From Pontibacter ummariensis (GTDB lineage: Bacteria; Bacteroidota; Bacteroidia; Cytophagales; Hymenobacteraceae), in contig NZ_FZOQ01000005.1 in NCBI RefSeq assembly GCF_900188175.1, positions 124,001-188,000 of the forward strand: a stretch of 64,000 bases of DNA, read 5' to 3'. Below are positions 1 through 9,259 of this stretch, piece after piece. The notes beneath the pieces were generated by a model. The model was not told the origin of the DNA. It saw nothing but the letters and a program-made list of their open reading frames with translations, and ran no database searches. The number at the start of each line of letters is the position of its first letter. The stretch's first letter is position 1. Made by a program: the position numbers and the translations under genes.

Positions 1-694
1 TGAACTGCCCCCAGGCTGGAGCATGAACAGTTTCCTTTCCGCGGCGGTCCAGGAACTGCCGAATAACCGCAACCCCGTTGAGGTAGGAAATAGGGGCAAC
101 GCCCGAATAGGCAGAGCAGCGTTGCCAATGGGAGAATGACTCCGCGTCTTCGTAGTACGCCAAAGACACCGTTTTGCCCTTAAAGCCAACGTTGAAGTCA
201 GGAAGCTCAAAAGGATCACCTGCCTTTGCCAATGTTCCGTCGGCAGCAGACCTTACCCACTCAAGGGCCCTCTGTACATGCCAAACCAAGCGCTCAATAG
301 TGGTGACCGGCTCCGCCTCCATGGCATTTCGGGAGGCAGCCAATCCATGCATTTCATTCAAGCAGCAGATGTGCCCGTTGCGAACGGGCCAAACAGCATG
401 AGGACCGCCGTTATACTGCTGGTGCTCAAAGGTGTGCCTTATGCCCCCCTCCCCAGAATCAGGATGCACCTGTACCTTTCCCCAGGCATCAACCCGGAAG
501 TCCACAACCATTACCCACTCTGTAAAACGAGGAACCTCAGAGGTAGGCTCAGCTTCCAAAAGCTCGAGGCGCAGACGTACCATCCAAGTATCGGAAGAGG
601 GTGCCGGCTCCCAGTTCCCCAGGAGCTGAACACCTTTTATCCTCTCCATCAAAACACGGCTCTGATCAAGTGCCAGTAAGTCAAATTCGCTCAT
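1..694 (-). CDS. E2 (UBC)-like conjugation protein, probable E2-E1 fusion, 3' end outside window
   Basis: The reading frame is open on the minus strand from ATG at 694 to the window edge, giving 231 residues without a stop. The sequence resembles the prokaryotic E2-like domains found at the N terminus of ThiF/E1 fusion proteins. There is an HPDSGEGG stretch near residue 77, then a FEHQQYNGGPH segment, then RNGHICCLNEMHG with two cysteines at about 110 and 111 where the E2 catalytic cysteine sits. It is followed by a helix rich in W and R and a GDPFELP end near residue 165. In the family the E2 cysteine takes a ubiquitin-like protein from the E1 and passes it to a target. The E1 part is inferred, because it would lie left of base 1. 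It starts 13 bases after the UPF0339 gene, so the two are co-transcribed. An E2 without a fused E1 is also possible. Confidence 0.6.
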   Translation of the reverse strand, partial: MSEFDLLALDQSRVLMERIKGVQLLGNWEPAPSSDTWMVRLRLELLEAEPTSEVPRFTEWVMVVDFRVDAWGKVQVHPDSGEGGIRHTFEHQQYNGGPHAVWPVRNGHICCLNEMHGLAASRNAMEAEPVTTIERLVWHVQRALEWVRSAADGTLAKAGDPFELPDFNVGFKGKTVSLAYYEDAESFSHWQRCSAYSGVAPISYLNGVAVIRQFLDRRGKETVHAPAWGQF

Positions 695-707
695 GAAGAC
701 AAGCCAA

Positions 708-1154
708 TTAAGCGAATCGTCCTCCGCCCGTGGCTCCTCCGGAAGCAGGAGGGACATAGCCACCGCCCTGGTTACCGTTGTTCCCGTTTTGCTTGCCTAT
801 CTCGCTGAGCAGCGCCTTGACGTTCTGGAAAGCGCGCTTAACGTTCTGCTCGCTAGCATAGCCCTCTGCACTGTCAGCCAACGTCTTGTTGTTTTTCGCT
901 TGGAAGTGCCAGCGCCACTCGCCTGCTCTGTCTTCAAAGTACTCCCACTCCGGTCCGTGTCCTGACTCTTCTATTTTGGTCACTTTACGCTCTGGGGCGT
1001 TTGGGCCTAACGTTGTGAAAAGGGCAGCCCCTTTCTCACAGTCCTTGCGATCTTTGTAACTCTCTCCCGAGTCAGCCACAATCGCACCATTTCCGTCCTT
1101 CAGGCGCCAGCGCCACTCAAGACCTCTGTCTTGGTAAAAGTTAAATCCTTTCAT
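708..1154 (-). CDS. Tandem UPF0339/DUF1508 (YegP-like) protein with Gly-rich C-terminal tail
   Basis: 148 residues holding two copies of the UPF0339 module. Each has the aromatic EWRWR/EWRWH core, an ADSGESY or ADSAEGY turn and a following helix (about residues 4-50 and 68-115). The modules are followed by a flexible tail rich in Asn, Gly and Pro ending in GGATGGGRFA. UPF0339 proteins are small and of unknown function and often occur as such duplications. Here the gene is the first of a leftward operon with an E2-like gene 13 bases downstream. The glycine-rich end resembles the tails of proteins used as conjugated modifiers, so it could be the modifier or a dedicated substrate of the neighbouring E2. 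That role is inference only. The identification of the repeat is firm. Confidence 0.75.
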   Translation of the reverse strand: MKGFNFYQDRGLEWRWRLKDGNGAIVADSGESYKDRKDCEKGAALFTTLGPNAPERKVTKIEESGHGPEWEYFEDRAGEWRWHFQAKNNKTLADSAEGYASEQNVKRAFQNVKALLSEIGKQNGNNGNQGGGYVPPASGGATGGGRFA

Positions 1155-1197
1155 ACCGTTTTTTGCTAAAAATTGAAAATAAAAATTATATTGTTAC

Positions 1198-1246
1198 CTA
1201 TTGTTCTAAGCGTGACAAGTGTGGTTTGTCACGCTTAGAACAATAG
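1198..1246. promoter_or_regulatory. Perfect 21-bp inverted repeat between divergent operons
   Basis: The arms are 1198-1218 and 1226-1246, each perfectly complementary to the other, with a 7-base spacer GTGTGGT. The inner end of the left arm reads AAGCGTGACAA. The repeat lies between the start of the UPF0339 gene (1154, leftward) and the sigma-like gene (1339, rightward), so it can control both directions. It could be an operator for a dimeric regulator, perhaps one of the products of the rightward operon, or a strong transcribed hairpin. No T-tract follows either side, which argues against a simple terminator. Confidence 0.7.
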
Positions 1247-1338
1247 CAGAGGGACAGTAATAAAGGGAAAACATAAGCGGCAGCTGTGTAGCAAGTATTG
1301 CATCGGTTGCATGGAACTTGGCGAAAGCGTGATAAACT

Positions 1339-2019
1339 ATGGAGCAACAGAAACTAAAGGACAAAAATCTCTATGCAGGCGAGGATGTACAAACTATTTT
1401 ACTATCCCTATCTTACGGGGATCAGTACCCGAACGAGTACAATCAAGCCATTCAGGAGCTCCATAATAGGTATATGGAATTTATTAGTAACGCCAGTATG
1501 TTGGCTTGTAGATTTTTCAGCAACCCTTCTGAGCTTGCTCAGGACATAGCTGGCAATACTTTCGTTACTGCATGTGAGAAGGCGGTGGAGTTTGAACCTA
1601 GGGAAACCTTTGATGAAGAGAGAGAATTTAAGGCATGGCTTGTCGGAATAGTGAAAGAACAGCTAAAGTATTTTACGACTCACAATCCTGAAAGACAGTT
1701 TCATTCCTCTGTGGGCGAACTGTCAATAGGGCTGAGTGCAGGCGATGAGCAGCAAGATGATGAGCTTTTTGTGAAGGAAGACGATTATCCAATTACAAAA
1801 GAAAGCGCCCGTGAAGCCCTTAACTCACTGAAGCCAAGAGATAAAGACATAGTCATGGCTTATTTGAATCATGTGCACCGAAAAAATGCCCATTTGCCCG
1901 ATGATATTATGCAGGACCTTTGCTTACGGTATAAGACAACACCATTCAATGTAAGGCAAGTAAAGTATCGCTTCTTTAAAAAAGTTAGAATGTTAAACGG
2001 GGGTAAAGCTTCATTATGA
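1339..2019 (+). CDS. Sigma-70-like RNA polymerase sigma factor / regulator
   Basis: 226 residues. The middle (about 45-110) looks like sigma region 2, with the pattern LAQDIAGNTFVTACEKA followed by FKAWLVGIVKEQLKYF. The C terminus (about 150-215) resembles sigma region 4, with LNSLKPRDKDIVMAYLN and a later helix that would contact DNA. It starts a three-gene operon and overlaps the next start by four bases (ATGA). It is not one of the usual ECF genes with an anti-sigma partner. As the first gene facing the conjugation operon across a perfect palindrome, it is the natural candidate to control one or both operons. The sigma assignment is by pattern recognition and could be a more distant helix-turn-helix regulator. 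Confidence 0.6.
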   Translation: MEQQKLKDKNLYAGEDVQTILLSLSYGDQYPNEYNQAIQELHNRYMEFISNASMLACRFFSNPSELAQDIAGNTFVTACEKAVEFEPRETFDEEREFKAWLVGIVKEQLKYFTTHNPERQFHSSVGELSIGLSAGDEQQDDELFVKEDDYPITKESAREALNSLKPRDKDIVMAYLNHVHRKNAHLPDDIMQDLCLRYKTTPFNVRQVKYRFFKKVRMLNGGKASL

Positions 2020-2375
2020 AAATAGTTAAAAAAGGTATACCGTCTGCCAGTCAAGATGATACATCATATGAGATCAGACTCCTTCGGTTTCTAGGAGAAA
2101 ACGCTTTCATCATGCCGGAATCTGATAAAGAAATGGATGATTTTATCAGCCTTTGTGACAGCATAAAAATTGAATTGCCACATGCTTTGAAAAACCCTTT
2201 TGACATTGTAAGAAAGGGATTAGTAGAACCAAGGGATATTCTGGACTCTGATAATGAAGATACCAGGGATATAGAAAATAACTTAGCCCAAGCGGCCAGA
2301 GAGGGGAAAGAGATCCCAGCACATATTCTTGAAAAGATGAAGGAGAACAGGAAGAATGCAGAAGACAAGAAATAA
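2016..2375 (+). CDS. Hypothetical 119-residue protein between sigma-like and ImmA/IrrE genes
   Basis: I do not recognise a family. The protein is acidic in the middle and charged at the C terminus (EKMKENRKNAEDKK), with no signal peptide or membrane segment. The start codon overlaps the stop of the sigma-like gene, and the ImmA/IrrE gene begins 12 bases after its stop, so the three are translated from one message. In ImmA/IrrE systems the peptidase usually cleaves a partner regulator made from the same operon. This small protein or the sigma-like protein could be that target, for example as an anti-sigma. That is inference from gene order. Confidence 0.6.
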   Translation: MKIVKKGIPSASQDDTSYEIRLLRFLGENAFIMPESDKEMDDFISLCDSIKIELPHALKNPFDIVRKGLVEPRDILDSDNEDTRDIENNLAQAAREGKEIPAHILEKMKENRKNAEDKK

Positions 2376-2387
2376 CCACGAAACAAA

Positions 2388-3215
2388 GTGCTCCGGAATA
2401 ATCGCGAATTAGAAATAGCTGAACTTGCCGAATCTGTGGCTGATCACTTTTCCTCCGATCAAGTGATAGACTTAGAGGCTATAGCAGGCGCAAATTCTAT
2501 CTCGTATGATTATGGACCTTATGAATCTTATTTTGACGGTATGCTCCAATGTCTTGGTGATAAATTCCATATCTTCCTTAACCTAGATAAACTAGGAAAG
2601 CGAAACTCGCCCCGCGCCAGGTTCACCATGGCGCATGAGCTAGGGCATTATTATATTGATGAGCATCGGAATGCCTTACTGAGCGGCAGAGTCAGGCCAC
2701 ACACATCCATGGTGGAGATATATAATAATATAAATCTTGCTGAAAGAGAAGCAGACTGCTTTGCGTCTAATTTGCTAATGCCAAAGAATAGGTTCTTAAG
2801 TACTTATAAAGCAGGGAAAAAAGTTGGCTTGGCTGCAGTACTACATTTAGCAAATGCTTTTCAGGTTTCTGTGGTGAGTTCCGCCGTTAACTTTGTAAAA
2901 AGTGATGTTAATGTTTGCGCTCTGGTCAAGTGGAGTGCCAAAGGCTATGAGTGGTCTCTGCAGTCAAAGTCATTTACAAACTTATTCTCTAAAAACCTTC
3001 ACATCACTTACTCTCCTGGAAGAGAGACAGCCACTTATAAGGCGCTGCATCAGGAGGATATTTATTCTCTAGACTTTTATAAGTCAGTTACCACGATGTC
3101 TATGTGGAGTAAGTCTATTGCAAAAACTGGCAAGGATAACATTTTTTTAAATGAAGAGGCCATAAAGCTTGGAGCCTACGGCGGCATAACATTACTCACA
3201 AGAAGCAACTTATAA
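2388..3215 (+). CDS. ImmA/IrrE-family zinc metallopeptidase
   Basis: 275 residues starting at GTG. The zinc site is visible as FTMAHELGHYYIDEH near residue 80-95, with the third ligand region EREADCFASNLLMP near residue 125. These are the family hallmarks of ImmA/IrrE peptidases, which cut repressor-type partners in response to DNA damage or phage signals. The C-terminal half (about residues 150-275) is a longer sensory-type extension without a recognised domain. Third gene of the operon headed by the sigma-like gene. It probably acts in the cytoplasm on one of its two operon partners, switching the divergent E2 operon on. The enzyme family is clear, the target is inferred. Confidence 0.88.
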   Translation: MLRNNRELEIAELAESVADHFSSDQVIDLEAIAGANSISYDYGPYESYFDGMLQCLGDKFHIFLNLDKLGKRNSPRARFTMAHELGHYYIDEHRNALLSGRVRPHTSMVEIYNNINLAEREADCFASNLLMPKNRFLSTYKAGKKVGLAAVLHLANAFQVSVVSSAVNFVKSDVNVCALVKWSAKGYEWSLQSKSFTNLFSKNLHITYSPGRETATYKALHQEDIYSLDFYKSVTTMSMWSKSIAKTGKDNIFLNEEAIKLGAYGGITLLTRSNL

Positions 3216-5530: not shown

Positions 5531-6169
5531 TTACCTCCGGGGGCCGGTAGGCTTCACTTCTTCGGCACTACCTCCTACTCCCCTGCTTTCTGATTGCCCG
5601 AGCACTTCAGGCTTTGTCGTAAATCCGCGTGGCTCGTTGAGGTCCACTCGGGCACGAATGATCTCATCTCCTCCCTTTGACTTAATCTCCAGCACATTAC
5701 CCTGCCGAAGCTGCTCTTTCTGGTCAGGGCTCAGCACAACATCCTTTATGGCACTCGGCACGATGAAGTCGCGCACCCTGGCACGCAGGATCTCATTGGT
5801 TTCCCTGTCGAGTTGGAAGTAATGCGGCTCTCTTTCCCCGTTCAGGGCTATGTGATCCCGGACCAGTAGGCCTCCCGTCTTTAGCTTCTCCATCTCCTCC
5901 GGTGTGGCCCCAATATCATTCTTGATTTGGGCACGAACAGGATGCACGTTCAGTGAAAGGGAGTTGTCAGGGTTGCGAAACAGGGAAAGCTTAGCATCCG
6001 TCTCAAACCGCTGGCCATTTGTCAGCTCCACCGAGAAGGTGAGCAGGCTTGTGCGGTTCCCTGACAGCATTGCAGCAAGGTCCTCCGGCTTCATGTTCAG
6101 GACACCCTTCCTGTTCAAACCCAGCTTTTCAAACTGAGCATACGGGAGATCCTTTATGTCAAAGTTCAT
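5531..6169 (-). CDS. DUF4099/DUF3945-domain protein
   Basis: 212 residues. The first 45 residues match the DUF4099 pattern (FDIKDLPYAQFEKLGL, then a GNRTSLL motif). The centre matches DUF3945: GGLLVRDHIALNGEREP, YFQLDRETNEILRARVR and LSPDQKEQLRQGN. The tail is low-complexity and basic (TGPRR). These domains accompany topoisomerase and TOPRIM genes of Bacteroidetes mobile elements. Their biochemical role is not established. First gene of a two-gene leftward operon with the TOPRIM protein, divergent from the M23 peptidase gene. Confidence 0.8.
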   Translation of the reverse strand: MNFDIKDLPYAQFEKLGLNRKGVLNMKPEDLAAMLSGNRTSLLTFSVELTNGQRFETDAKLSLFRNPDNSLSLNVHPVRAQIKNDIGATPEEMEKLKTGGLLVRDHIALNGEREPHYFQLDRETNEILRARVRDFIVPSAIKDVVLSPDQKEQLRQGNVLEIKSKGGDEIIRARVDLNEPRGFTTKPEVLGQSESRGVGGSAEEVKPTGPRR

Positions 6170-6303
6170 ATGAATACTTTAAACGTATATTTTATTACAA
6201 TTATATGCAAAAAAGGTAAATATAAAGCAAATAAATACTGTTTCATCCTTACTTTTACCCTCTTAAGAAATAAATATGATGCCCTTATTCTACAAATGAT
6301 TAC

Positions 6304-6933
6304 ATGATGTTGAAACTTTGTTTATTCTCCAACTTATTGCTTCTCTCACTCTCATGCTTTGGACAGTTTAACACAGTGAAGAAAGTAAAAAACCTGCCTT
6401 TTGTGCAGATTGACGAGCCAACGGATACAGTTAAATGGGGAAAGTCAGATATTCTGGTGTCAACACATGTTATTGCGCATCCGCTGCAAGTCTCTTTGCC
6501 TCTCCATTCCCCGATCATCAACAGCGAGTACGGGCACAGAATAGACCCCCTCACAGGTAAGACCGCGTTTCACCAGGGCATTGACTTCAAAGCGAAGGAT
6601 GGCTCTGTGCTATCCATCATGCCAGGTAAAGTAAAGAAGGTGGGATACAGCAAAGGGCTTGGGAGCTACATCGAGATAGAGCACGGCGCGTACCGCAGCG
6701 TTTACGGGCACCTTTCCGCTATCCTTGTTCGGGAGTCAATGACAGTACCTGCAGGCGCTGTCATTGCCATCACAGGAAGCACAGGCAGAAGCACTGGCGA
6801 GCACCTTCACTTTGCGATCAAACACAATGGCAGGATAGTCAACCCCACCCCGTACCTGGATTTGATTTACCGCAAGGTAGAGAACAGCAGCAGGGCTACA
6901 GAACCGCTTTCTTCCGTTAAGTACTTCCGTTAA
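6304..6933 (+). CDS. Secreted M23-family peptidoglycan endopeptidase
   Basis: 209 residues with an N-terminal signal peptide (LLLLSLSCFGQ) and a complete M23 domain. The zinc ligands are visible in FHQGIDFKAKDG (H and D) and in GEHLHFAIKHNG (HxH), with the upstream YGHRIDPLTG typical of the LytM group. It would cut peptide cross-links in the periplasm. Next to a transfer region, such enzymes open the cell wall for the mating apparatus. It is the only rightward gene in this part and converges with the XRE regulator gene. The family call is firm; the mating role is inferred from context. Confidence 0.88.
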   Translation: MMLKLCLFSNLLLLSLSCFGQFNTVKKVKNLPFVQIDEPTDTVKWGKSDILVSTHVIAHPLQVSLPLHSPIINSEYGHRIDPLTGKTAFHQGIDFKAKDGSVLSIMPGKVKKVGYSKGLGSYIEIEHGAYRSVYGHLSAILVRESMTVPAGAVIAITGSTGRSTGEHLHFAIKHNGRIVNPTPYLDLIYRKVENSSRATEPLSSVKYFR

Positions 6934-6938
6934 GTAAC

Positions 6939-7295
6939 TTAAGCGATGGAACTGCTCAGCAGCCTCTTCACCTCCACGAGCTGCGCGTTAACCTCCTCAC
7001 CAAGCAAAGACAGTTTCTCCACGGCAATGCTGTTATAGGGGCTGGTGAGCACGTCTCCCGGGGCACTGAGAATGATCTCGAATTCATCTGCAAAGATGAA
7101 CCGGACATTGTAGTTAGTGCCGTAGTAGTTGAGCACCTGGAGAAGCAGCTCAACACTGCTGCCCTCCCCGTTCTCAAACTTAGAGATCTGGGTTTGGTGA
7201 ACGCCCATGGCCACGGCTACCTCCTTCTGAGAGAGGCCCAGTGTCTTTCGGAAAGCGTTTAGCTTCTCCCCAATATCAGACAATGCTATATTCAT
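6939..7295 (-). CDS. XRE-family helix-turn-helix regulator
   Basis: 118 residues. Residues 8-60 form a standard HTH_3 domain (GLSQKEVAVAMGVHQTQISKFENG), followed by a short domain that may pair two monomers. The start overlaps the stop of the coupling-protein gene by four bases (ATGA), so it is the last gene of the transfer operon and should be made together with it. A regulator at the 3' end of a transfer operon would fit feedback control of transfer. This is inferred from position. Confidence 0.8.
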   Translation of the reverse strand: MNIALSDIGEKLNAFRKTLGLSQKEVAVAMGVHQTQISKFENGEGSSVELLLQVLNYYGTNYNVRFIFADEFEIILSAPGDVLTSPYNSIAVEKLSLLGEEVNAQLVEVKRLLSSSIA

Positions 7296-9259
7296 ACTTG
7301 AAACGCAGCTATAAGTGATTCAATATCCTTGTTGATTTTAATGAAGTTTGCTTCAAGTTTGGCAGTACGGGCGGCAACTGTTCCAAATTTATAAAATATT
7401 GGCATATCTACATACTGCTCTTCCTCTTTTGCAACCTCGTCAAGGTTAAGGTTTATCTTACAGTTGTACGTGCTGCTTACATGCCTGCCATCATATACCG
7501 CATTGTCAAAGGCTACCTGCCCCACCATCTCCCCTGCCCTTAGGTTAGCTATCTTGGAAGCCGGTATAAGCGGCCCCATCTCCTCGCTCATGCTCACAGA
7601 TACCCGGCTCCTATCGATGCTTACCCCTTGCTTCTGCTGTCTCACCTTCCCGAATATCTTCTCCAACCAATCCAGTGTCTCCTTATTTCTCACGGACCCT
7701 GAGAGCACGTTAGCGGCCACGGAGCAGATTGTGTCGGCTGTTTCCCTGCCGTACTGTTGTTTGAGCTGGGGAAGCTCCTGAAGGCCCAAAAGAACGGCTA
7801 TTTTGTTGCTTCTCGCTGTCGCTATCAGGTTCTCCACCTTATGCACATAAAGTGTCGGCGATTCATCCACAATAAGACCGCAAGGCAGATTCCCTTTTGA
7901 GTTGATGAGCTTGGTCATGCGATTCAGGATAAGGGCGTTGCAGGCGCTGTTGATGCTCTGCGTGGACGGATCGTTTGCGATCACGAGTACAGACGGGGCT
8001 TGGGGGTTGGTGATCTTTAGGTCAAAGTCATCCCCTGATAGCACCCAGAAGGTTTCTTTCGTGGCCAGGCGCCCGATGTTGATTTTAAGGGTGCCGATCT
8101 GCCCCTCCAGCTGGTCGAAGGCCTTGTTGCGGAAGGCGGTGCGGAAGGGAGAGAGTAGGCTCATCAGCTGCGGCTCTGTGAACAGTAGTTCGAATATCTC
8201 CTCATAGCCCTGGTTGATGAAGGCCATCACGTGCGGGAAAGTAGAATACCTGCCACTTTCGTGCCGGCTTAAAAAGAAGATACAACTGGCAAGGAAGTTT
8301 ACGGCTGACTGCGTGAAAAACTGCGCAGCGCCGGACTCCTTATCGTTTTTTGTCAGCGATTGCAGGAGCGCCTCGGCCGTCTCCGTCGCATCGGCAAGGG
8401 TGGGCAGGTACTCCGGTTTCAGCGGGTTAAATCTCCTGCTGTGTTCTACACTGTTGAAGTTGATCACATGGAATTTGTGGTGCTTCAACGGTCCCAGTTT
8501 CTTGTTCACCAGGTAGTGGTAATAAGCGATCTTTCCCAAATCAGGAAACTTGAAGTCATAAAGGGCCATAGAGAAGCCCTTGGCCAGCATCTGTTTAATA
8601 AAGGGGTTCACGACAGAGAAAGACTTACCCGAGCCGGGAGTGCCAATGAGCAGCGTTGCCCGGAAAGGATTGACGATATTGAGCCAGCCCTTATTGATTT
8701 TCCTCTTGTGATAGTAGAGCATGGGGATGTTCACCGAGTAAGGCGTGTCCACCAGCTCGCGCGACTGCTCAAAGGACTCATTCTCTACGTTGAACTTGTC
8801 CTTCATTAAACTGCTCTGGATGTGCTTGGACACGTTATCAAGCGCTACATGGATCATCACGGCACCGATGAGCGACAGCACCGTGTACAGCAGTTCAAAC
8901 AGCGTAATACCGTAGAACAGCTCCGTCTCACTTACATAGTAGTAGAAGAAACCCGAGCCCAGAAACAGCACCGCCCCAATAAAAAGGGGAAGGAAGACAT
9001 GCTTGAGCGGGTCAAAGTTCAGGTTCTTCTGCGCCTTCGTTCCGAGTGCCACGATCATGATCAGAGCGAATGTGAAGGCTTTGGAGAAGTAGATGTTCTC
9101 GTAGATGGGGAGACGGGCAAGCCTTTCCACAACGGGCCTCACACTCGCCAGAAACGCTGCGTCTGCATACAGCAGCACGGCAAACTCCACAAACAGGGTA
9201 AAGTAGACAAAGCCCTGGAGAAAGCCGTAGAGCTTTTTTAATTCGCTTGATTCTTCCAT
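7292..9259 (-). CDS. Type IV coupling protein (VirD4/TraG-like ATPase)
   Basis: 655 residues. Four hydrophobic segments lie in the first 145 residues, then a cytoplasmic ATPase with Walker A GTPGSGKS at about 206-213, Walker B-like CGLIVDESPTLYV and the TraD/TraG-type motif LLGLQELPQLKQQYG. Coupling proteins dock the relaxase-DNA complex to the transfer channel at the inner membrane. It follows the tra genes and precedes the XRE gene in the leftward operon. The length and layout agree with Bacteroidetes conjugative-element coupling proteins. Confidence 0.9.
   Translation of the reverse strand: MEESSELKKLYGFLQGFVYFTLFVEFAVLLYADAAFLASVRPVVERLARLPIYENIYFSKAFTFALIMIVALGTKAQKNLNFDPLKHVFLPLFIGAVLFLGSGFFYYYVSETELFYGITLFELLYTVLSLIGAVMIHVALDNVSKHIQSSLMKDKFNVENESFEQSRELVDTPYSVNIPMLYYHKRKINKGWLNIVNPFRATLLIGTPGSGKSFSVVNPFIKQMLAKGFSMALYDFKFPDLGKIAYYHYLVNKKLGPLKHHKFHVINFNSVEHSRRFNPLKPEYLPTLADATETAEALLQSLTKNDKESGAAQFFTQSAVNFLASCIFFLSRHESGRYSTFPHVMAFINQGYEEIFELLFTEPQLMSLLSPFRTAFRNKAFDQLEGQIGTLKINIGRLATKETFWVLSGDDFDLKITNPQAPSVLVIANDPSTQSINSACNALILNRMTKLINSKGNLPCGLIVDESPTLYVHKVENLIATARSNKIAVLLGLQELPQLKQQYGRETADTICSVAANVLSGSVRNKETLDWLEKIFGKVRQQKQGVSIDRSRVSVSMSEEMGPLIPASKIANLRAGEMVGQVAFDNAVYDGRHVSSTYNCKINLNLDEVAKEEEQYVDMPIFYKFGTVAARTAKLEANFIKINKDIESLIAAFQV

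Follow-up and report, generated by a model that had tools for sequence, protein, structure and literature searches.

Type II cyclic oligonucleotide-based anti-phage signalling systems (CBASS) are among the closest described parallels to the locus considered here. According to one study, Cap2 forms a thioester with the C-terminal glycine of cGAS, the last residue (glycine or alanine) is highly conserved in 1,583 cGAS proteins of operons containing both Cap2 and Cap3, and cGAS, which Cap2 joins through this residue, has no beta-grasp fold (PMC10097602). The present locus lies at the left end of a 64,000-nucleotide stretch of the Pontibacter ummariensis genome (contig NZ_FZOQ01000005.1; G000:C59:124001-188000; hereafter the window), and its continuation to the left was read from the same genome. 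It consists of two divergent operons, one for a tandem UPF0339/DUF1508 (YegP) protein, an E2-E1 fusion (E2E1) and a JAB protein, the other for a sigma-like factor, an M78 (ImmA/IrrE) metallopeptidase of the CapP type and, between them, a small protein, X. We consider it fairly probable that these represent two modules, a YegP-Cap2-Cap3 conjugation module and a controller that would act by releasing the sigma factor.

As in type II CBASS, a Cap2-type E2-E1 and a Cap3-type JAB are found with a controller of the DNA-damage type, the genes run in the order modifier, E2-E1, JAB (with the cGAS/DncV-like nucleotidyltransferase, CD-NTase, before Cap2 in CBASS), and the protein encoded before Cap2, here YegP, ends in a flexible ...F[A/G] tail. 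Unlike in CBASS, the tandem YegP protein occupies the position of the CD-NTase and is the presumed conjugate. No CD-NTase family match was obtained among the scanned neighbouring proteins, the first gene of the operon being DUF1508, and family scans revealed no nucleotide-sensing effector gene near JAB, whose neighbours are a convergent 355-aa gene without family match and then a ResIII/DEAD helicase. A plain type II CBASS was ruled out, as neither CD-NTase nor effector was seen.

Two further conjugation systems are comparable. In the NF058523 system, too, the enzymes are Cap2/Cap3-like and their partner is not a CD-NTase; we assume that it is the metallo-beta-lactamase (MBL) protein. NF058523 matches E2E1 (1.2e-33, 116.6 bits) and JAB (1.7e-32, 112.8 bits) far under the 320-bit cut-off, and its partner differs from that of the window locus, where YegP takes this place and no MBL gene was seen. 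Bub/Bil systems share ubiquitin-like conjugation, a JAB protein and the same kinds of controller; unlike the window locus, they carry beta-grasp or multi-ubiquitin modifiers, and Bub/Bil was ruled out since no ubiquitin-fold gene was seen.

Two described controllers are also related. With CapH+CapP the locus shares a CapP-type M78 protease, a preceding small protein matched by the capH profile, a divergent immune operon and a palindrome; unlike CapH, the small protein here shows no helix-turn-helix (HTH) and is accompanied by a sigma factor resembling the extracytoplasmic function (ECF) group. In the other, capK+capS+yegP (PMC13373217, EMBO J 2026), a yegP homologue likewise stands beside a DNA-damage controller, following capK+capS in 57 of 443 cases. 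The accessible part of that paper terms the YegP family uncharacterised, suggests that yegP might belong to immunity or to a broader, global response to stress, and makes no mention of E1-E2 or JAB alongside it (PMC13373217). One YegP+E2E1 locus (L011) resembles this arrangement, while the controller in the window is sigma/X/CapP.

The YegP-Cap2-Cap3 module

The E2-E1 and JAB proteins are, by homology, relatives of Cap2 and Cap3. A four-row E2E1 profile matches the solved Cap2 structure 7to3 in the Protein Data Bank (PDB) at 4.6e-113 over positions 22-579 of 608, and the window protein as a single sequence matches it at 1.6e-63. The PADLOC models for E1-E2 (PDLC00848) and JAB match the two window proteins at 5.9e-142 and 7.1e-36, respectively. 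Because of the homology to 7to3, the E2 part can be regarded as UBC-like, as an earlier note made from the window alone had expected. The presumed catalytic cysteines of the E2 (Cys110) and of the E1 (in GLGCWHP) each align to an alanine in the 7to3 chain; these alanines we take to be the mutated catalytic cysteines of Cap2. In addition, the JAB protein carries the JAMM motif ETGG...GEWHSHPSSSPSPSTVD (GEWHSHP...D), and its gene is joined to that of E2E1 by an ATGA overlap. The E2-like frame starts at an ATG at 694 on the minus strand, with an alternative GTG at 763 in the program's list of open reading frames (ORFs).

All features that the earlier note had named were located in the window. On the leftward side it had described a tandem UPF0339 gene and an E2-like gene, both of which are present, and had supposed that the E2 was fused to an E1 and that ThiF and JAB domains lay beyond the left edge; the frame entering from the left indeed belongs to a protein of 598 aa whose C-terminal part is a ThiF domain, and the JAB gene was also found on leftward extension. 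On the rightward side, its sigma-like, unknown and ImmA/IrrE genes are all in place (1339-3215, plus strand). The interpretation built on these genes, that of an undescribed conjugation system, is partly supported: none of the outcomes named in the note as refuting it came about, but the enzymes are Cap2/Cap3 relatives and the locus therefore varies a known kind of system.

The partner itself is a YegP-family protein, matching NCBIfam HVO_2922 at 1.2e-29, and the YegP profile matches the PDB YegP structure 2k8e at 4.6e-19. An AlphaFold2 (AF2) model has the YegP fold with a predicted template modelling score (pTM) of 0.72 and a confident body, in which 10-residue means of the predicted local distance difference test (pLDDT) are 84-94, with 67 in the linker. 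When this model was searched with Foldseek, YegP-family structures ranked first, and the 50 matches listed, out of 1060 in the PDB (E <=10), include no ubiquitin.

Of 395 genomes sampled from the phylum, 4 carry relatives of E2E1 (E <=1e-20), one of them being the Pontibacter genome itself. Such relatives also occur in 32 plasmid records, eight of which were fetched, and at 7 loci from a scan of genome contigs with just two peptide patterns. YegP stands directly before E2E1 at a minimum of eight distinct loci, namely the window, a Spirosoma plasmid (L013), Hymenobacter rubripertinctus (L021 and L022), a Bacteroidetes metagenome-assembled genome (MAG; L023), Rhodothermales MAGs (L010, the same as L026, and L027) and L011. 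By phmmer, six of the eight also have a JAB relative. The co-occurrence foreseen in the earlier note thus holds for this core, but its five genes are not one system. The other fetched relatives are CBASS-like, with SAVED annotated in five plasmid loci and a nucleotidyltransferase in two, and L012, L024 and L025 read as CBASS from their sequence. No E2E1 relatives were found in viral contigs by two narrow pattern scans or in 50,697 phage records. Searching plasmids with the L011 E2E1 returned 32 records, with no YegP annotated under the matches except that of Spirosoma. In the literature searched, which took in few subscription papers and no bioRxiv preprints, there is no description of YegP with Cap2.

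Two of these loci have further particularities. In the Spirosoma plasmid (NZ_CP087140.1; L013:6032-7537), a heme peroxidase family gene lies between the controller pair and YegP, and the E2E1 reading frame is interrupted. In Hymenobacter rubripertinctus, both YegP-E2E1-JAB copies are on a single contig, NZ_QYCN01000035.1.

The C-terminal tail of YegP

Most likely, YegP is a non-beta-grasp modifier, which the E2-E1 would attach by its C-terminal alanine and JAB would take off again. In the model, the tail of the window YegP is disordered; its last three residues are Arg-Phe-Ala, and all eight YegPs adjoining E2E1 terminate in Phe-Ala. Among ten proteins encoded directly before E2E1 in CBASS loci (L012, L014-L020, L025 and L059; the L024 CD-NTase, with masked bases at its end, was excluded), nine end in Phe-[Ala/Gly] and all ten in Ala or Gly. 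An F[A/G] end is found in none of five CD-NTases from CBASS loci showing just an E2-like gene, these E2-like genes being assigned by eye and those of L034 and L035 giving no E2 family in Pfam. A sixth such CD-NTase (L103), examined after the group of five was fixed, ends NYGG. Lastly, only 1 of 19 YegP-domain ORFs away from E2E1 in the same phylum has this end. These controls, 7 of which are longer than 180 aa, were 20 ORFs minus L081, the window's own YegP; none has E2E1 by tblastn within ~1.5 kb on either side, and a few weaker DUF1508 matches without a locus were kept out.

A longer pattern, [GS][FY][TVAS]x(11-15)F[AG], separates the groups similarly. It occurs in 6 of 8 YegPs beside E2E1 and in 8 of 10 of the CBASS proteins preceding Cap2, in comparison to 0/5 CD-NTases of E2-only loci, 0/19 control YegPs and 1.5-2.5% of shuffled tails.

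In the proposed mechanism, the E1 would adenylate the C-terminal alanine of YegP (Ala148), YegP would be handed from the E1 cysteine to that of the E2 and on to amines of its targets, and JAB would strip it from them again. YegP would thereby substitute for the CD-NTase as the modifier, and a cyclic nucleotide would not be involved.

Several observations weigh against this proposal or the counts behind it. The longer pattern was composed post hoc, once the tails had been seen, and both Rhodothermales YegPs are without its aromatic motif. Ala or Gly is likewise the last residue of seven of the 19 control YegPs, one of which ends in FG; therefore, the terminal residue alone does not discriminate, while the preceding Phe does. 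Near-copies (L021/L022 and L010/L027) inflate the tail and locus counts, and phmmer found no JAB in two of the eight loci, L010 and L027. In addition, a 19-row E2E1 tree splits the YegP-type enzymes into two groups, one comprising the window, L013 and L021-L023 (five rows) and the other L010, L027 and L011, so that the tree is compatible with one origin as well as with several.

Alternatively, though we regard this as unlikely, YegP might be a bound substrate, adaptor or effector whose RFA tail serves only for docking on the Cap2-like enzyme, the conjugated protein being a different one, either from the host or an unlinked modifier. Because YegP is also found alone beside controllers of this kind, at a locus where it faces a sigma/X/CapP operon (L038) and in the 57 of 443 capK+capS cases (PMC13373217), it may have a function without conjugation. 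However, the YegP of L038 has no RFA tail, the full tail pattern was observed in neighbours of E2E1 alone, with none of the 19 controls showing it, and its likeness to the tails of conjugated CD-NTases favours conjugation of YegP; nor was another candidate modifier gene seen in the operon.

The sigma/X/CapP controller

The sigma, X and CapP genes form a separate, swappable controller and are not part of the conjugation core. A single five-gene system was ruled out, since the trio is found beside different types of operon and the YegP core is accompanied by different controllers. Six of the eight YegP+E2E1 loci (L013, L021, L022, L023, L010 and L027) have instead a divergent HTH+M78 pair, identified by PADLOC for the M78 proteins of L010, L021 and L023 and the HTH protein of L010, by annotation in L013 and otherwise by reading. 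At L011, the controller resembles CapK+CapS by eye; one of its two CapK/CapS-like proteins (L011:9750-10604) has no Pfam match.

Relatives of X were found in 6 of 291 genomes in a sample of the order, 16 of 395 in a sample of the phylum and 6 of 249 in one family. These correspond to 22 distinct genomes, of which G163 and G320 were doubtful, with matches inside frames of 904 and 1346 aa (E 2.8e-4 and 7.3e-4), and were not fetched, leaving 20. In profile searches, a sigma gene adjoins X in all 20 fetched genomes, as well as in a viral contig (L039), and the full trio with a CapP-like gene is present in 18 of the 20. In 11 of these 18, a CBASS, multi-ubiquitin/Bub/Bil-type or YegP-Cap2 operon lies divergently alongside, with Pfam support. 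With the longest ORF starts, sigma and X overlap in 12 of 16 loci and X and M78 in 13 of 16 (L060-L062 being outside this measurement). No X or sigma relatives were found in plasmids by tblastn.

The outer members of the trio are recognizable. As a single sequence, the window sigma factor reaches 22.8 bits with Sigma70_r2 in Pfam, under the cut-off of 24, and a six-row profile matches ECF and other sigma-factor structures in regions 2 and 4 (best 7.2e-6). PADLOC capP matches the window M78 protein at 1.1e-41 and six other M78 members of the trio that were tested at 2.4e-37 to 5.1e-66. Against the PDB, the M78 profile has the solved CapP 7t5t (8.2e-19) as its sole match at E <=0.01, and HExxH is invariant across five M78 rows.

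X is probably an anti-sigma factor that would be cleaved by CapP in its conserved C-terminal segment, AAREGKEIP..ILEKM. The N-terminal part of X would keep sigma inactive. Damage or infection would produce single-stranded DNA and thereby activate CapP, a step taken from CapP work as summarised in PMC13373217. Activated CapP would cut X and free sigma, which would transcribe both operons from a palindromic promoter at 1198-1246, so that YegP, E2-E1 and JAB are made. In the literature searched, including the accessible part of PMC13373217, there is no mention of a sigma factor acting with CapP.

In two loci, L063 (G049; 5617-7567) and L103 (G740; 6319-7053), the N-terminal part of X remains with sigma but is joined to different sequence, and the fetched stretches contain nothing CapP-like. 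These variants face a multi-ubiquitin/Prok-E2_E operon (L063) and a CD-NTase operon (L103). The fused domain bears a presumed resemblance to DUF4065/Panacea, without Pfam support. Two genes further on in L063 is a caspase-like gene (Peptidase_C14, 3.4e-14). A different route of proteolysis may stand in for CapP in these variants.

The case for an anti-sigma factor also has points against it. X is without similarity to known anti-sigma factors in Pfam, and nothing credible was found in the PDB; its AF2 model is poor (pLDDT 66, pTM 0.26), too poor for a fold search; and PADLOC capH matches 12 of 13 X proteins at E <=0.1. The controller could also be a plain CapH+CapP pair, in which X is a diverged CapH repressing at the palindrome, with the sigma-like protein in an accessory or repressing role, an explanation we think rather unlikely. 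In several members the capH match runs nearly end to end (8.4e-19 in L055), and as this profile covers X, the protein may already be counted as CapH by others. Palindromes would also fit dimeric repressors, and those of CapS are known (PMC13373217). Against this explanation, Pfam finds no HTH family in any of the 13 X proteins, the association of the sigma gene with X holds throughout the fetched genomes, and the N-terminal part of X is retained with sigma in L063 and L103, where CapP was not found.

A broader question is whether the locus serves immunity at all. No immune operon lies in the stretch read for 5 of the 18 trios (L060, L061, L062, L064 and L065), and this counts in favour of a general stress or protein-quality module, which we consider somewhat unlikely for the window locus. 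A short Argonaute pair ~11 kb away and the kinship of the enzyme with parts of CBASS speak against it.

The trio occurs in other settings as well. In four genomes of one family (L060, L061, L062 and L064; G272, G390, G125 and G133, respectively) it lies amid housekeeping genes, recognized by eye in three of them as ribF, truB, rbfA and infB, a setting that suggests a chromosomal damage response. In L038 (6843-7196), the tandem YegP gene that faces the trio has no E2E1 in the stretch read. The viral contig L039 (IMG/VR 3300044453_000224; 5868-7897) carries the trio among genes that read as phage-like, perhaps as a prophage induction switch.

Taken together, YegP/UPF0339 as a new non-beta-grasp ubiquitin-like modifier sharing a tail code with CD-NTases, combined with a fourth kind of immune controller that acts by sigma release and not by lifting a repressor, is a proposal that we hold only tentatively, at less than even chances. 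If it is true, Cap2-type enzymes would be a general platform for tail-tagging unrelated proteins (CD-NTase, YegP and possibly MBL), the C-terminal code would be a feature common to Cap2-loaded proteins, the YegP family would gain its first role, and sigma-factor release would join the known routes from DNA damage to bacterial immune operons.

The inverted repeat and the setting of the locus

The sequence between the two operons probably contains a local bidirectional promoter or operator shared by them. The earlier note had reported a perfect 21-bp palindrome here; the 21-bp arms are indeed perfect, but they form an inverted repeat with a 7-nt spacer. None of 200 dinucleotide-shuffled versions of the intergenic region gave a comparably good repeat, and the pattern TGTCACGCTTNNNNCAATA occurs exactly in the genome only at both arms, with one 1-mismatch site elsewhere. 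The core of the repeat, TGTCACGCTT, recurs in the equivalent intergenic place in L035 (26-bp arms) and L063 (10-bp arms), and L055 and L058 have related inverted repeats with ACGGTTTT or CACGCTTTT. A core of CACGCTT or ACG[CG]TTTT, or its complement, is present in 10 of 15 regions, the pattern being post hoc.

Two results detract from a shared promoter. When a matrix built from 11 hand-aligned sites was tested by leave-one-out, 7 of 13 regions reached p<0.05 and the window was not among them (p 0.31). In the trio regions of L036, L037, L038 and L102, moreover, shuffles yield inverted repeats as good as the best one present. The repeat might alternatively be an RNA hairpin (a terminator or leader) or a mobile-element remnant unrelated to sigma, as arms of 21 bp around a 7-nt loop are expected to fold strongly and several trio loci are without such a repeat. 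This is nonetheless very unlikely, given that repeats with the same core occupy the same place at two other operon types (CBASS in L035, multi-ubiquitin in L063) and that further exact copies are absent from the genome by pattern search. Because the repeat sits between divergent starts, a terminator would also be of little use. A shared promoter or operator remains the preferred reading, and the positions of all features are given in Table 1.

Table 1. Features of the locus and operon types facing the sigma/X/CapP trio. Plain positions refer to the window.
Feature	Position or locus	Strand	Support or remark
JAB gene	L005:6416-6901	-	Prok-JAB, Pfam 8.7e-13
Full E2-E1 fusion	L005:6898-8694	-	C-terminal ThiF, Pfam 3.7e-18
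E2 (N-terminal) part of the 598-aa Cap2-like E2-E1 fusion	1..694	-	ORF; gene continues left to G000:C59:122898
Codon of Cys110, presumed E2 catalytic cysteine	365..367	-	Invariant in four-row alignment
Tandem UPF0339/DUF1508 (YegP), 148 aa, presumed modifier	708..1154	-	DUF1508, Pfam 1.4e-20, two stretches
Flexible YegP tail, residues 124-148, ending ...GYVPPASGGATGGGRFA	711..785	-	pLDDT <50
Left arm of 21-bp inverted repeat	1198..1218
Right arm (TTGTCACGCTTAGAACAATAG)	1226..1246		92 nt before sigma start
ECF-like sigma factor, 226 aa	1339..2019	+	Sigma70_r2 8e-5; profile matches to sigma structures
Protein X, 119 aa, presumed anti-sigma factor	2016..2375	+	PADLOC capH match 5e-4
CapP-type M78 (ImmA/IrrE) metallopeptidase, 275 aa	2388..3215	+	Peptidase_M78, Pfam 1.2e-9
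Trio facing CBASS	L034, L035, L056, L057, L058, L059
Trio facing multi-ubiquitin or ubiquitin-like protein with E1	L036, L037, L055, L102		E1 match of L037 0.0052, below cut-off
Trio facing YegP-Cap2-Cap3	Window
Trio facing KAP NTPase and a 414-aa gene	L101

Beyond the locus itself, two neighbours deserve mention. The short Argonaute pair to the left of the window (L004:6582-9375, corresponding to G000:C59:110582-113375) consists of a PIWI-like protein (PADLOC pAgo_I, 3.6e-182) and an SMEK-nuclease/APAZ-like partner (PADLOC 4.7e-160; SMEK_N in Pfam, 1e-46). Within the window, a 655-aa protein with a P-loop is encoded at 7292-9259 on the minus strand, and we take it to be a TraG-like conjugation coupling protein, a reading that suggests a conjugative element.

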